Source: a virus. Taken from it: 51,050 nucleotides of DNA. Positions 29,264 through 35,212 of this stretch are shown piece by piece. The stretch spans positions 1 to 51,050 of IMG/VR virus record IMGVR_UViG_3300017763_004019. One strand, written 5' to 3'. Positions within the stretch are counted from its first letter, which is position 1; each line of letters starts with the position of its first letter. A program made the position numbers and the translations under genes. The notes below the pieces were generated by a model that worked only from the letters and a program-made list of their open reading frames with translations, had not been told where the DNA came from and did not search any database.

Positions 29264-30892
29264 ATGGACTGGTTCCCCCTGTGTAATTACACACACTACT
29301 CACTACAAAAGGGCTTTTCTAAGCCACATGAGTTAGCTAAAAAATGCTCTCAAAATTCATACCCTGCATGTGGTATAGCAGACTATAAATCTATATCTGG
29401 AGTGATATCTTTTTATAAATCTTGCATCTCTAATAACATTAAACCAATCATTGGCTGTTCTTTTGATGGATTTCATCTATTCTGTAAGAACAAAAAAGGT
29501 TGGCTAGAACTTATTGAAATAGTCTCATCAATAAGTGCTGACGGAGTTGTTGACAATGGCTTGGTGGTAAGCCTGTGTAAAAATGGAAACTTTATATGTG
29601 TCGCTGAAGATGTGTCAAAGTCTCCCATAAAAGGTGAAGATTTCTATCAGAAGACTGAGTGCTTCTTAGAAACTTATTATGTGAACAGATCTGACGCACC
29701 CCTTCATAGAATTAGCCTATGCTCTGCGATGAAGACTACACTGCCAAAGGTAATGAAGAGTATAAACAATAATGAAAATATTGAAAACTCAGAGTTCTTT
29801 GAGCAAAACAACTTCTTCTTAAAAGACGATGTAGAAGTAGCAGAACTAATATTATCAGACACAAAGATTGAAAGATTTAAAGAAATATACAACAAGTGTG
29901 ACAACTATGAGATATTGAACAAGCCTATGCTGCCCAACTTTCCAGCACCAAACGGAAAGTCTGAAGAAGATTACCTGAGAGACCTAGCGAGAAAAGGTTG
30001 GGTAGAGCTACTTGTTAAACATGGCAAGGTGGAAGACAAGAAAAAGAAGCAAGAATATCTTGATAGATTTTTGATGGAATTTGATGTTATAGAAAATGCC
30101 AATCTATTCGGTTATTTTCTAATCGTACAAGATATCGTTAATCATGTAAACAGCCAAGGTTGGCTATCTGGTCCGGGGCGAGGTTCCGCTGCTGGATGTC
30201 TGATATCTTACTTGGTGGGTATCACAAAGATTGACCCCATTGAATTTGATCTTCTGTTTGAGAGATTCTACAATAGCGGTAGAAACACAGAAACCCACGT
30301 ATCCCTGCCAGATATTGATATGGACGTACCGGGAAACAAGAGAGACGAGATTATTACATACTTGAAAGATAAGTATGGAAATAGTAATGTTAGTCAGATG
30401 TTGACATTCGGAAGACTACAAGGCAGGAGCGCACTGAAAGAAGTGCTACGAGTTAACGCTGCTTGCGGTTTTAGCGAAATGAACGAGATAACAAAAGCCA
30501 TACCTGACGAAGCTGCAATTTCAGATCAACTCGCAGAGATGGATGAGGAAGACAGATCTATTATTAGATGGTCACTAATCAATAATCCAGAAGACCTTAG
30601 AGATTATTGCTTTATTAATGATCGTGGAGAGCTTGACGGAGATTACGCAGAGTTTTTTGACCAAGCAATCAGAATAGAAGGAACATTTAAAACACAGGGT
30701 AAACACGCTGCTGGTGTCGTAATATCAGCAGAACCGTTGCACAAAGTTTGCCCTATGGTAAACCAGAAAAGCGGTGGAGAAAAAATTGCTGGTCTTGAGA
30801 TGGCAGACTTAGAATCTTTAGGTCACGTAAAATTTGACGTACTCGGTATTAACTTATTAGACAAGATTATGAAAATTAAGGAACTAGTATGA
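29264..30892 (+). CDS. dnaE: DNA polymerase III alpha subunit (DnaE-type), N-terminal part of split gene
   Basis: The first 542 residues of a C-family DNA polymerase. The PHP domain at the N terminus is degenerate: the usual HLHxHS start is NYTHYSL and the TDH motif is ADY, so metal-dependent proofreading there is probably lost. The palm is complete, with SGPGRGSAAGCLISYL, catalytic Asp350 and Asp352 (LPDIDMDVPG) and Asp525 (HVKFDVLG). It stops 17 residues after Asp525, where other DnaE proteins continue into the fingers. The stop overlaps the exonuclease ATG (ATGA), and the rest of the polymerase resumes at 31574. Confidence 0.93.
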   Translation: MDWFPLCNYTHYSLQKGFSKPHELAKKCSQNSYPACGIADYKSISGVISFYKSCISNNIKPIIGCSFDGFHLFCKNKKGWLELIEIVSSISADGVVDNGLVVSLCKNGNFICVAEDVSKSPIKGEDFYQKTECFLETYYVNRSDAPLHRISLCSAMKTTLPKVMKSINNNENIENSEFFEQNNFFLKDDVEVAELILSDTKIERFKEIYNKCDNYEILNKPMLPNFPAPNGKSEEDYLRDLARKGWVELLVKHGKVEDKKKKQEYLDRFLMEFDVIENANLFGYFLIVQDIVNHVNSQGWLSGPGRGSAAGCLISYLVGITKIDPIEFDLLFERFYNSGRNTETHVSLPDIDMDVPGNKRDEIITYLKDKYGNSNVSQMLTFGRLQGRSALKEVLRVNAACGFSEMNEITKAIPDEAAISDQLAEMDEEDRSIIRWSLINNPEDLRDYCFINDRGELDGDYAEFFDQAIRIEGTFKTQGKHAAGVVISAEPLHKVCPMVNQKSGGEKIAGLEMADLESLGHVKFDVLGINLLDKIMKIKELV

Positions 30893-31563
30893 ACAGAGAT
30901 ATTATAGTATTTGACTTTGAAACAGGTGGTCGGAACCCAATGAAGTGTCAACCAACGCAAATTGCAGCGTTGGCTTTAGACGGTAGAAACTTTAGAGTCA
31001 AGGGAGAGTTCAATAGCATGATGCGTCCAATCTTGGATGACAAAAAAGCAGTCGCAGCGGGCGTTGATCCAATTGAAGAGGGTGCTTTGAAAGTTACCGG
31101 TCAGACCAGAGAACAGCTAGCTAAAGCTCCACTACCCAAAGGTGTCTGGAAAAAATTCTGTACCTTTGTAAATAAGTACAACTGGAAAAGCACACCTTAT
31201 TTTGCTCCAATACCAGCGGGATTTAACATCATCGGTTATGACATGAAGATTGTAGACCGACTATGTAAGGAGTACGGACCTTACGACGACAAGAGAGAGT
31301 GTCAAAAATTATTTCATCAGATATATAAGATTGATGTAATGGACGATGTGTGGCTCTGGACAGAAGGCGACCCCAATGTTAAGTCTATTAGTATGGATAG
31401 CCTAAGAGAAAGAATGGGATTATCTAGTGAAAATGCTCACGATGCATTGCAAGATGTCAGAGATACAGCTAATATATTTATAAAGCTGCAAAAATCAAGA
31501 AGAGCAGTTTATAAGAATATGAAATTTGAAAAAGCTTTTGCAGACGGACAACTATACGTTTAG
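30889..31563 (+). CDS. DnaQ-like 3'-5' exonuclease (DEDDh)
   Basis: A 224-residue DEDD exonuclease, probably the proofreader of the split polymerase. Exo I is VFDFETGG (Asp9, Glu11), Exo II is GFNIIGYDMKIVD (Asp), and Exo III is AHDALQDVRDT (His and Asp), which makes it DEDDh like DnaQ. It lies between the two halves of dnaE and overlaps the first by four bases. It has no polymerase or beta-clamp-like segment of its own. Physical pairing with the polymerase is inferred from position. Confidence 0.92.
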   Translation: MNRDIIVFDFETGGRNPMKCQPTQIAALALDGRNFRVKGEFNSMMRPILDDKKAVAAGVDPIEEGALKVTGQTREQLAKAPLPKGVWKKFCTFVNKYNWKSTPYFAPIPAGFNIIGYDMKIVDRLCKEYGPYDDKRECQKLFHQIYKIDVMDDVWLWTEGDPNVKSISMDSLRERMGLSSENAHDALQDVRDTANIFIKLQKSRRAVYKNMKFEKAFADGQLYV

Positions 31564-31573
31564 GTTGAAAAAT

Positions 31574-33133
31574 ATGATTGATTACGAAGATAGTAAAACT
31601 TGGGATTTGTTTAAAGATGGTAGAACTAAGGGTGTGTTTCAGTTAGAGAGTAATCTTGGTAGGTCTTGGTCTAAGAAATTAGCTCCCAAGAATCTAGAAG
31701 AATTAGCTGCTCTTATTGCTTTGATTCGTCCGGGATGTCTAAAAGCTATCACAGATGGCAAATCTATGACTCAGCATTATGTTGATAGGAAGCACAAGAA
31801 GGAGGATGTTTCATACTTGCATGAATCCTTGGAAGAGATTTTAAAACCTACATACGGGGTTTTGGTTTACCAAGAGCAATCTATGCGTATCGCCCAAAAG
31901 CTTGCTGGATTTGACCTGCAAGAAGCAGACGTGCTACGTAAAGCGATTGGTAAGAAGAAAGCCGATCTGATGGAGAAAGTAAAAAAGTCCTTTATAAAAG
32001 GTGCTAAGAAGGTAGGAATGGTTAACAGTGATGTTGCAGAGGAAATCTTCTCGTGGATTGAAAAGTCTTCTAGATACTCCTTTAACAAGTCACACGCCGT
32101 TGCTTATGCAATGAATTCTTTTTGGTCTGCTTGGTACAAAGCAAATCACACTAAAGAATTTTTTCTATCGTATTTCTTCTACGCATCAGAAAAGCAAGAC
32201 CCTCATCAAGAAGTTTATGAGCTTCTATCAGACGCTAAACTGTTTGACTTAGAAGTTAAAACGCCAAACCTTTCAAGGTTCAGCACTAAGTTTGAAGCAT
32301 ACGGAAACGTAATTCAGTTTGGTGTTAAAGATGTGAAGTCTTTAACGGGTGTCAACGGCGACAAAACCATGAAAGCTATTAAAGAAGCAGAAGAGTCAAC
32401 GGGTAAAGACGCTTCTAAATTTACTTGGATGGACATTCTGATCCACCTCTCAACAAGTATTAACGCAACAGCCTTTAAAGCCCTATGCTCTATAGGATTC
32501 TTCTCAACCAAGAAAACTTTAGTAACTAGGAATAAAGCATTATATGAATATCTTATATTTAGAGAGTTAACAAAAGCAGAAGTAACTTGGGTCCAAAAGC
32601 ACTACAAGGATAAGAAGTGGAAAAATCTACACGATTGCTTTGTAGACTTAGCACCTACTAAAAAGCTTGGTGGAGGAACCAGCAAAGCAGAGAGGATGCA
32701 GATTATTAACAACGAAATAGAAATGCTAAAGTCGCCACCCTACGACCTTTCTGACGACCCAGCTTGGATTATAGAGCAAGAAGCAAAGTTCTTGGGCTGC
32801 CCTGTGTCTTTGTCAAGGATTGAAGCGGCAGATACCTCTATCGCAAATACAACTTGCAAGGATATCTTAAATGGTAAAACCGGAAAGAATCTTTGTGTCG
32901 CAGGAAACGTGAACAGGATGGCAACACACAAAGTAAAGAAGGGTAAAACCCAAGGCAAGCTAATGGCATTTCTAACCATAGAAGACGACTCTTGCTCTTT
33001 AGACAGTGTTGTTATTTTCCCAGAAGCTAGAGAAAAATATAAATATGTATTATATGAAGGTAACAATCTATTATTGTGCGGGAATGTAGAGAAAGATAAC
33101 TCATTTATTGTAGACAAAATTCATGAAATCTAG
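31574..33133 (+). CDS. dnaE: DNA polymerase III alpha subunit (DnaE-type), C-terminal part of split gene
   Basis: About 519 residues that continue the polymerase where the first part stops. SKTWDLFKDGRTKGVFQLES and ALIALIRPGC match the start of the DnaE fingers, EPTYGV-type text appears as KPTYGVLVYQEQSMRIAQ, and NKSHAVAYAMNSFWSAWYK is the conserved fingers helix. A C-terminal OB-fold is seen in LMAFLTIEDDSCSLDSVVIF. Together with the N-terminal part this gives about 1,061 residues, near full DnaE length. An in-frame TTG at 31526 would add 16 residues; I prefer the ATG at 31574. Confidence 0.9.
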   Translation: MIDYEDSKTWDLFKDGRTKGVFQLESNLGRSWSKKLAPKNLEELAALIALIRPGCLKAITDGKSMTQHYVDRKHKKEDVSYLHESLEEILKPTYGVLVYQEQSMRIAQKLAGFDLQEADVLRKAIGKKKADLMEKVKKSFIKGAKKVGMVNSDVAEEIFSWIEKSSRYSFNKSHAVAYAMNSFWSAWYKANHTKEFFLSYFFYASEKQDPHQEVYELLSDAKLFDLEVKTPNLSRFSTKFEAYGNVIQFGVKDVKSLTGVNGDKTMKAIKEAEESTGKDASKFTWMDILIHLSTSINATAFKALCSIGFFSTKKTLVTRNKALYEYLIFRELTKAEVTWVQKHYKDKKWKNLHDCFVDLAPTKKLGGGTSKAERMQIINNEIEMLKSPPYDLSDDPAWIIEQEAKFLGCPVSLSRIEAADTSIANTTCKDILNGKTGKNLCVAGNVNRMATHKVKKGKTQGKLMAFLTIEDDSCSLDSVVIFPEAREKYKYVLYEGNNLLLCGNVEKDNSFIVDKIHEI

Positions 33134-33162: not shown

Positions 33163-33186
33163 TATACTAAAACAACGGAGACATTG

Positions 33187-33507
33187 ATGAACAATTGCAC
33201 TTTTACTGGGTATTTATTACACGACCCACAGATAGAAGGTGATGCAGATGGGCCATCTTGCTGTACTGTAAAAATGGTAACTTACGAATACCGTAAGAAC
33301 AAACGTGGTGAAAAGAAGAAAGTTCCTACGACCATAACGCTTCAGGCGTGGGCTAGTGGTGCAGACACAATTGCTAAACTAGGCAAGAAAGGAACCAAGA
33401 TGACTGTTTACACCTCCGCTAGAAACGGGTTCGTGAAAACAGAATCTTCTGATGACATTGTATTTAGAATTAACGAATTTGACTTTGGATGTTTAGACAA
33501 GGAATAA
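33187..33507 (+). CDS. SSB-like OB-fold protein (second SSB)
   Basis: A 106-residue protein whose pattern follows SSB: NCTFTGYLLHDPQIEG for the first strands, TVKMVTYEYRK, TTITLQAWASGADTIAKLGKKGTKMTV and FVKTESSDDIVFRINEFDFG. It is more divergent than the SSB at 3373 and shorter at the C terminus, which ends DKE. The ATG at 33187 is preferred to a TTG three bases earlier. Adjacent to the split polymerase, it may act at the fork or bind a different substrate. Confidence 0.72.
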   Translation: MNNCTFTGYLLHDPQIEGDADGPSCCTVKMVTYEYRKNKRGEKKKVPTTITLQAWASGADTIAKLGKKGTKMTVYTSARNGFVKTESSDDIVFRINEFDFGCLDKE

Positions 33508-33508
33508 G

Positions 33509-35212
33509 ATGAGAAAAAAAAGAATACTATTTTGCAGCGAAGCTACCTTTCTAAACACAGGGTACGCTACTTATACTAGGGAGATTTTAAATTATCTTCA
33601 CAGTACAGGTAAGTATGAAATTGCTGAAATGTCTTCCTACGGACAAAGAAACGACCCAAGGGCAGCAAACATTCCTTGGCAATACTACGGAGTGTCTCCA
33701 AATACAGAATGTGAACCAAAAGCCTCAGAAGAAGAGCTAAAAGCATTTCACTCATCTGGAACTAATCAGTTTGGCGAATGGATCTTTGACCATGTTTGCC
33801 TAGACTTCTTACCAGATATCGTTTGTGACATTCGTGACTTTTGGATGCTTGAGTTTGCTGAGAGATCTCCATTTAGAAGATTCTTCAAGTGGGCAATCAT
33901 GCCAACGGTTGACGCTAGACCACAAGCTCGTCAATGGGTGTCAACCTACGCTGGGGCAGACGCTTGCTTTACTTACTCAGACTGGGCGGGAGGTATCTTA
34001 AAAGATCAGTCTGGAGACAAAATTAATTACTTAGGTTCTGCTCCACCATCTGCTCATCCTGCTTATAAACCCGTGCTAGATAAAAAAGCTCATAAATTAT
34101 CTATGGGCATAGATCCAGAATATAAAATCATTGGCACTGTTATGCGTAATCAAAGACGGAAGCTGTATCCAGACCTTTTCAAAGCATTTAAAAAGTTTTT
34201 GGACAATCAGCCAGCAGACGACAAAAAGTATTACCTATACTGTCATACATCTTATCCAGATTTGGGTTGGGACATACCAGAACTAATCATTGAAAATGAT
34301 TTAGCTTCACACGTACTATTCACCTATATCTGTCCAGAAACAAAGAAACCGTTCACATCATTGTTTAAAGGCGCGGTAGTACAGTCTCCTTACACTGGAA
34401 AGTGGGGATGTACATTATCAAACGTTAAAAACGGTGTGGAGTATAAAGATCTTTCTAGAATTATCAACTGTTTTGATCTATATACTCAATATGCAAACTG
34501 CGAGGGGTTTGGATTACCCCAAGTAGAAGCTGCGGCTTGCGGGATTCCCGTGTGCGGAACTGATTACTCTGCTATGGAAAGTGTTCTAAGGAAGTTAGGC
34601 GGACATCCCATCAAGCCTGCGGCTTTGTATAAAGAGCTAGAAACTGGGTGCTTACGAGCAGTCCCAGACAATGATGCGGCGGCTGAATACTTCAAAGAAT
34701 TCTTTTCTAAATCAGACGAATGGAGATATATCAAGGGTGAACATACAAGAGAACAGTTTGAAGAATATTACCAGTGGCATCTGAGCGGTAGCCAGTGGGA
34801 AAATTACTTTGATAGTGTTGACATATTACCTATAGAACAAACTTGGATGTCAGCGCCAAGTATCCAACAACCAGAACCAAAACCTGAGAATATCCCCCCA
34901 AATGCTAATCACTCAGAGTTGGCAAGATGGATTATTTTGAATGTGCTAAAAGATCCATCAAAGGTAAATACATTCGTAGAAGCTAGATTGACTAGAGATC
35001 TTATGTATAGATCTACAACATCTTCTACAGGAGGTATGTATTTTAACGAGTCATCCGCAGCTTTTGACGGATTGAATACCAGAAGTGAGTTCACATTTGA
35101 CACAGCTTATGAAAACTTTAAGAACCAAAGAGAGCGAATAAATAACTGGGAACAAGTTAGAATACAAAGAATGAAAGAGCGACAACAGCAGACGGGGAAT
35201 TTAGGACTATAG
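33509..35212 (+). CDS. Glycosyltransferase, GT-B fold (large GT4-like)
   Basis: A 567-residue enzyme that opens the glycan cassette. RILFCSEATFLNTGYATYTREIL is the acceptor-domain entry. IIGTVMRNQRRKLYPDLFKAF begins the donor domain and NCEGFGLPQVEAAACGIPVCGTD is the nucleotide-sugar E-x7-E type site. An additional C-terminal 120 residues rich in Gln, Pro and Ser may be a separate interaction tail. The acceptor is not known. It starts two bases after the SSB-like gene. Confidence 0.87.
   Translation: MRKKRILFCSEATFLNTGYATYTREILNYLHSTGKYEIAEMSSYGQRNDPRAANIPWQYYGVSPNTECEPKASEEELKAFHSSGTNQFGEWIFDHVCLDFLPDIVCDIRDFWMLEFAERSPFRRFFKWAIMPTVDARPQARQWVSTYAGADACFTYSDWAGGILKDQSGDKINYLGSAPPSAHPAYKPVLDKKAHKLSMGIDPEYKIIGTVMRNQRRKLYPDLFKAFKKFLDNQPADDKKYYLYCHTSYPDLGWDIPELIIENDLASHVLFTYICPETKKPFTSLFKGAVVQSPYTGKWGCTLSNVKNGVEYKDLSRIINCFDLYTQYANCEGFGLPQVEAAACGIPVCGTDYSAMESVLRKLGGHPIKPAALYKELETGCLRAVPDNDAAAEYFKEFFSKSDEWRYIKGEHTREQFEEYYQWHLSGSQWENYFDSVDILPIEQTWMSAPSIQQPEPKPENIPPNANHSELARWIILNVLKDPSKVNTFVEARLTRDLMYRSTTSSTGGMYFNESSAAFDGLNTRSEFTFDTAYENFKNQRERINNWEQVRIQRMKERQQQTGNLGL

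Follow-up and report, generated by a model that had tools for sequence, protein, structure and literature searches.

Replicative DNA polymerases of family C are nearly always single chains. Both PolC and the alpha–epsilon pair of Escherichia coli combine a C-family polymerase with a DEDDh exonuclease, which in PolC is a domain within the single chain but in E. coli is encoded separately by dnaQ, alpha itself being one chain. A two-piece form is known from the group 2.2 jumbo phages, which carry a split minimal DNA polymerase III (Pol III) alpha (Iyer et al. 2021, PMC7824862). The locus considered here lies in the IMG/VR virus record IMGVR_UViG_3300017763_004019, a stretch of 51,050 bases referred to as the window. 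On one strand, at positions 29264–33133, it carries a gene for the first part of a DnaE polymerase (dnaE-N, product N), a DnaQ-type exonuclease gene and a gene for the remainder (dnaE-C, product C). As in the jumbo phages, a phage C-family polymerase is predicted to be rebuilt from two proteins. The jumbo-phage enzyme, however, is reduced to a minimal core that lacks the other Pol III domains, its genes are distantly located and a family B polymerase is present (PMC7824862), whereas the polymerase described here is full-length with a PHP domain, its genes are adjacent with an exonuclease gene between them, and no family A or B polymerase was detected in 14 contigs (the window and 13 relatives of 99–174 kb, records that may be fragments). 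It is therefore not a minimal split Pol III of the jumbo-phage kind. From its sequence, the locus probably specifies a Pol III alpha in two parts, the products of adjacent genes, with its own proofreading exonuclease encoded between them; this would be the replicative polymerase of the virus group.

In an alignment with E. coli DnaE, the end of N falls at residue 572 and the start of C at residue 588, so that the missing stretch is part of a variable linker and, as the first-pass annotation of the sequence had suggested, nothing essential is lost. That annotation had also placed the fingers in the second part. The split at the palm/fingers boundary is genuine, the first part having PHP and DNA_pol3_alpha matches and the second a DNA_pol3_finger match, and the annotation's total of about 1,061 residues is the sum of the two products (542 + 519). 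The palm/fingers boundary in the E. coli alpha structure is presumably close to residue 560, and hence the break would separate two structural parts at the cost only of variable linker. The aligned E. coli counterparts of Asp350, Asp352 and Asp525 are D401, D403 and D555; all three catalytic residues do lie in the first part, and they are invariant in 71 family sequences. Within PHROGs the two products match consecutive parts (246–614 and 623–1055) of a single DNA-polymerase family, phrog_405, and in profile searches of solved structures C matches E. coli alpha from residue 591 and N the region preceding it. AlphaFold2 single-chain models gave a predicted local distance difference test (pLDDT) score of 92.9 and a predicted template modelling (pTM) score of 0.89 for N, with bacterial Pol III alpha as the best Foldseek matches, and 91.7 and 0.81 for C, which matches bacterial Pol III alpha in the PDB; the two independently predicted folds correspond to complementary parts of bacterial alpha. 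The three palm (Pol beta-like) aspartates and the PHP, palm/thumb and fingers domains of a C-family polymerase are thus all present, over two proteins. The single polypeptide, which is usual for the family though not strictly defining, is absent, the halves never being fused in 201 distinct loci.

These loci come from scans of IMG/VR with N, exonuclease and C queries, genome contigs being scanned too; the matches listed are the best 80 per scan, sorted by likeness, so counts are lower bounds and a rare fused form could be missed. All 201 distinct loci with both halves, from many metagenomes, have the order N–exonuclease–C, and no fused in-group dnaE was among the matches listed for N-, C- or exonuclease-based queries of the viral collection and the genome contigs. 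Viewed from the exonuclease, 202 of 213 distinct loci are flanked within 1.5 kb by N on the upstream side and C on the downstream side; ten others are truncated where the contig ends, and L270, with a larger insert, has its N further upstream. N stops within 0–15 residues of the same point in every tabulated locus. The same split and order recur in two deep relatives found among the genome contigs, L368 from a Flavobacteriales bin and L369 from a Lokiarchaeota bin (probably itself a virus contig), where identities are about 38–41% for N, 31–35% for the exonuclease and 40–43% for C. In trees all split loci fall into one clade, with 100/100 support, against the intact DnaE of other phages and bacteria. 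The split clade has a single origin, and the arrangement, which is old and stable, extends across a clade of microbial viruses that is large and for the most part uncharacterised.

Assembly and frameshift artefacts commonly produce split genes, and the locus might be a decaying or mis-assembled dnaE in a phage that uses the host polymerase. The chance of this is vanishingly small: catalytic residues are conserved, and median omega values of 0.05 for N, 0.026 for the exonuclease and 0.036 for C show strong purifying selection on all three genes, strongest on the exonuclease. An assembly error, which the first-pass annotation had allowed for, is excluded by the identical order in 201 distinct loci from many metagenomes, and that number together with omega rules out a pseudogene as well. 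Nor is it at all probable that N and C are not one enzyme and have a separate role each. Each half does fold alone in prediction, but C-family catalytic residues, which are here in N, need the fingers to work, and both fingers and catalytic motifs stay conserved. Moreover, distances for N, the exonuclease and C correlate with r = 0.86–0.91 over 96 loci (permutation maximum 0.16), with r = 0.91 for N against C. The old and stable arrangement suggests a replicase that assembles from separate parts.

A mature enzyme of one chain could still arise if the halves were joined after translation or transcription, by a cryptic intein or a trans-splicing intron, and inteins do occur elsewhere in these genes. 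A split intein at FNK^SHA fractures dnaE-C again in six relatives (L031, L069, L166, L167, L168 and L169; Table 1), at a site presumably four residues downstream of the cyanobacterial DnaE intein site. Between the intein halves lies a free-standing nuclease-like open reading frame of about 300 residues, which in L168 has a DUF559 or restriction-endonuclease-like match. In L031 the dnaE-N gene, too, is interrupted by a split intein, at GPGRG^C (L031:748-3638), with a different nuclease-like frame between its halves; with two split inteins its polymerase is therefore encoded in at least four pieces. A contiguous intein with no obvious nuclease domain is found at RPG^C in the fingers half of L169 (5680-7086) and L086 (5093-7249). 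Dassa et al. reportedly described, in 2009, genes broken by split inteins together with a free-standing nuclease. The arrangements at FNK^SHA and GRG^C are of that type, but there is no intein at the N/C break. The work of Dassa et al. 2009 is cited in PMC6892783. At the break itself the end of N and the start of C are ordinary DnaE sequence, with no intein halves or Hint domain at the junction, although inteins elsewhere in the family are easily seen. An Rfam scan of the window region and six relatives gave no intron family at gathering score, and the gap in the window is almost wholly occupied by the exonuclease gene, leaving no free sequence for an intron. Joining of the halves is thus most improbable, and the statement that this break is neither an intein nor a frameshift holds. 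A break of another kind is seen in L027 (4274-6264) and L028 (7950-9963), where dnaE-N is interrupted again just before the catalytic PDID without intein signatures; the second N piece begins in both with a related extra stretch of about 80 residues.

The gene between the halves was correctly described in the first-pass annotation as a DnaQ-type exonuclease with an ATGA overlap with dnaE-N, as its coordinates and its RNase_T match (4e-12) show. An AAGGA element lies six bases upstream of its ATG, which overlaps the dnaE-N stop, and it also matches PHROG 192, 'DNA polymerase exonuclease subunit' (4.2e-28). The DEDDh residues D9, E11, D118, H184 and D189 are invariant in 25 sequences. It could nonetheless have become fixed in the gap as a passenger, such as a nuclease of recombination or DNA processing, with N and C alone forming the polymerase. 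Both junction gaps are insertion hotspots, exceeding 300 bases between N and the exonuclease in 46 of 201 loci and 200 bases between the exonuclease and C in 66 of 201, and they take in homing-endonuclease genes. Inserts include Endonuclease VII (1.6e-15), HNH endonucleases and, as read from sequence, methyltransferase-like and glycosyltransferase-like genes. In a sister lineage a conserved gene of about 75 residues, with the motif ..SVIFSGCSIES..VSICNL..YQVWSDRHR..NIDDAVNKFLEL.. and no Pfam or PHROG match, stands between N and the exonuclease; it is seen there in many loci of the L079–L092 and L114–L170 type. Unlike these passengers, the exonuclease is universal and single-copy, has the lowest omega and evolves with N and C; its PHROG family is named for a polymerase subunit, and the PHP site is destroyed in most members, so that the locus has no other candidate for a proofreader.

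Bacteroides phages of the SJC03/DAC16 group also have distant homologues of the exonuclease, at 25–31% identity, that are not next to dnaE; in DAC16 an intact dnaE of 1,277 residues lies 15 kb from the homologue. Chryseobacterium phage MA9V-3 perhaps carries another unlinked one. The first-pass annotation had held that the same exonuclease at an unrelated site in related genomes with an intact dnaE would overturn its reading. Such cases were seen only at this low identity, and the unlinked gene of the Bacteroides phages reads as the ancestral state rather than as a refutation, which fits a later capture. Together with the chance that members with a canonical PHP site proofread through it, these homologues leave the passenger explanation some room, but it is unlikely.

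The first-pass annotation had further proposed that the PHP domain is degenerate and that proofreading had for that reason moved to the inserted gene. The first part is correct for the window, where the canonical metal residues H, H, D, H, E, H, D, H, C are replaced, in that order, by C, Y, K, Y, S, G, E and Y, with a gap at the ninth position. The motif of active PHP proofreading, HHDHEH[C/H]DH (PMC12926913), is thus missing from the window, but it is matched in L079-type members. All nine metal residues are kept in L079, L088 and L092 and eight in L081 and L267, whilst most relatives have lost them, yet these five loci have the same exonuclease between the same halves. In trees the members of the intact-PHP type are sister to all degenerate-PHP members, and the deep relative L369, with eight of the nine residues by eye, branches further out still; the order is unchanged in a tree without the longest branches, although the root lies near long outgroup branches, which calls for caution about the history. 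Early-branching split members having both an intact PHP site and the exonuclease, the ancestor would therefore have had all three, with decay of PHP coming later. Such decay would have followed the split and the exonuclease and not caused the arrangement. The causal order first proposed is thereby reversed, whereas the exonuclease stands as the likely present-day proofreader.

In each of the 14 contigs the Pol III finger family matches exactly once and the exonuclease gene is present in a single copy, and N and C together are probably the replicase of the virus group. Some points weigh against the reading of the locus as a bipartite replicase with its own proofreader. A bacterial-type beta clamp was sought in the 14 contigs and none was found. 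The longest frame of dnaE-C overlaps the exonuclease gene, which makes the exact start of C uncertain; ATG 31574 is the most likely start, because in several relatives the frame is not open ahead of that residue, the in-frame alternatives being TTG codons at 31565 and 31526. Contact between exonuclease and polymerase is predicted from gene order and family alone, and the order of the genes might be a relic of past insertions, with the exonuclease belonging to no physical complex. A stronger variant, in which the exonuclease bridges the palm and fingers halves in a three-part Pol III core, stable since before PHP decay, so that polymerisation depends on the proofreader, is possible but doubtful.

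Two other phages have a DnaE in two genes with a gene between. In Rossellomorea phage phiT1 (PV767480; gp20/gp18, L356:4266-7548) the break is in the same linker (E. coli 578/579), but the intervening gene has 49 residues and no visible likeness to DnaQ, and the phage lies outside the split clade. Bacillus-group phages with an intact dnaE have surroundings similar to the phiT1 locus, and its split is probably independent. Lactobacillus phage Satyr (L174:4251-9157) differs in being broken at E. coli residue 401, in the catalytic motif, around what by eye is a GIY-YIG-like nuclease; dnaE is intact in its relative P1. The phiT1 and Satyr splits both seem to be independent, given the intact genes in Gemini, PS1, GBK1 and P1. 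A literature search, with subscription papers and preprints outside its coverage, did not turn up any description of a full-length DnaE divided by an exonuclease gene. The exonuclease-centred, full-length, clade-wide split appears to be a new form of the already known split phage C-family polymerases.

In the proposed mechanism N, with PHP, palm, thumb and all catalytic metal ligands, would associate non-covalently with C, from the fingers onward, to make one active site, C supplying template and duplex binding. The exonuclease would act as an epsilon-like proofreader of the N–C complex, and a single operon with the ATGA overlap would coordinate synthesis of the parts. As to its history, a single break in the palm–fingers linker, probably where homing endonucleases insert, may have divided an intact phage DnaE; fixation of the exonuclease gene in the gap would have come next, and the PHP site would have decayed afterwards in most lineages. 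Given the insertion hotspots and the fractures by split inteins and nucleases, a homing-nuclease origin of the old break is plausible.

The features of the locus are collected in Table 1. The HHH_6 and OB-fold Pfam matches were obtained on the stretch of L168 that corresponds to dnaE-C. Upstream in the window are genes for a ribonucleotide reductase, a UvsX-like recombinase and a DnaB-like helicase, and this is therefore a phage replication region. A small open reading frame resembling the SSB gene is also found downstream of dnaE-C in L069, L086, L167, L168 and L169. Directly after the SSB gene the window has a glycosyltransferase-like gene (33509-35212), a homologue of which stands directly after dnaE-C in L166 and one gene further on in L369.

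Table 1. Coordinates of the split polymerase locus in the window, and of the FNK^SHA fracture in six relatives
Feature	Position	Strand	Description	Basis
dnaE-N	29264..30892	+	PHP (degenerate), palm and thumb of C-family DNA polymerase; 542 residues	Pfam PHP 1.9e-13, DNA_pol3_alpha 6.2e-68; AlphaFold2 and Foldseek
Codons of catalytic D350 and D352	30311..30319	+	PDID; E. coli D401/D403	Alignment to E. coli DnaE
Codon of catalytic D525	30836..30838	+	KFDVLG; E. coli D555; close upstream of the break	
Exonuclease gene	30889..31563	+	DnaQ-type DEDDh exonuclease; 224 residues	Pfam RNase_T 4.2e-12
dnaE-C	31574..33133	+	Fingers, helix-hairpin-helix, OB-like C-terminal region; 519 residues	Pfam DNA_pol3_finger 2.4e-51
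SSRYSFNKSHA motif in dnaE-C	32066..32098	+	Unbroken in the window; split intein at FNK^SHA in relatives	
SSB protein gene	33184..33507	+	Downstream of dnaE-C	Pfam SSB 5.9e-7
FNK^SHA fracture	L168:7986-10842			
FNK^SHA fracture	L069:8635-11524			
FNK^SHA fracture	L167:3530-6443			
FNK^SHA fracture	L166:6265-9146			
FNK^SHA fracture	L169:5680-9116			
FNK^SHA fracture	L031:4985-7826			

A two-piece polymerase that is the only replicase detected, kept clade-wide through deep divergence, shows that a polymerase can be permanently broken at the palm/fingers boundary, and the family offers natural material for split-polymerase design. Annotation pipelines may label both halves as truncated dnaE. The locus also illustrates how homing nucleases and split inteins have repeatedly broken a single essential gene. 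If, as the trees indicate, the split and the DnaQ-type exonuclease came first and PHP decay later, this bears on the shift of C-family polymerases from PHP to DnaQ proofreading, and members in which both proofreading sites are apparently intact can be compared directly with members that have one.

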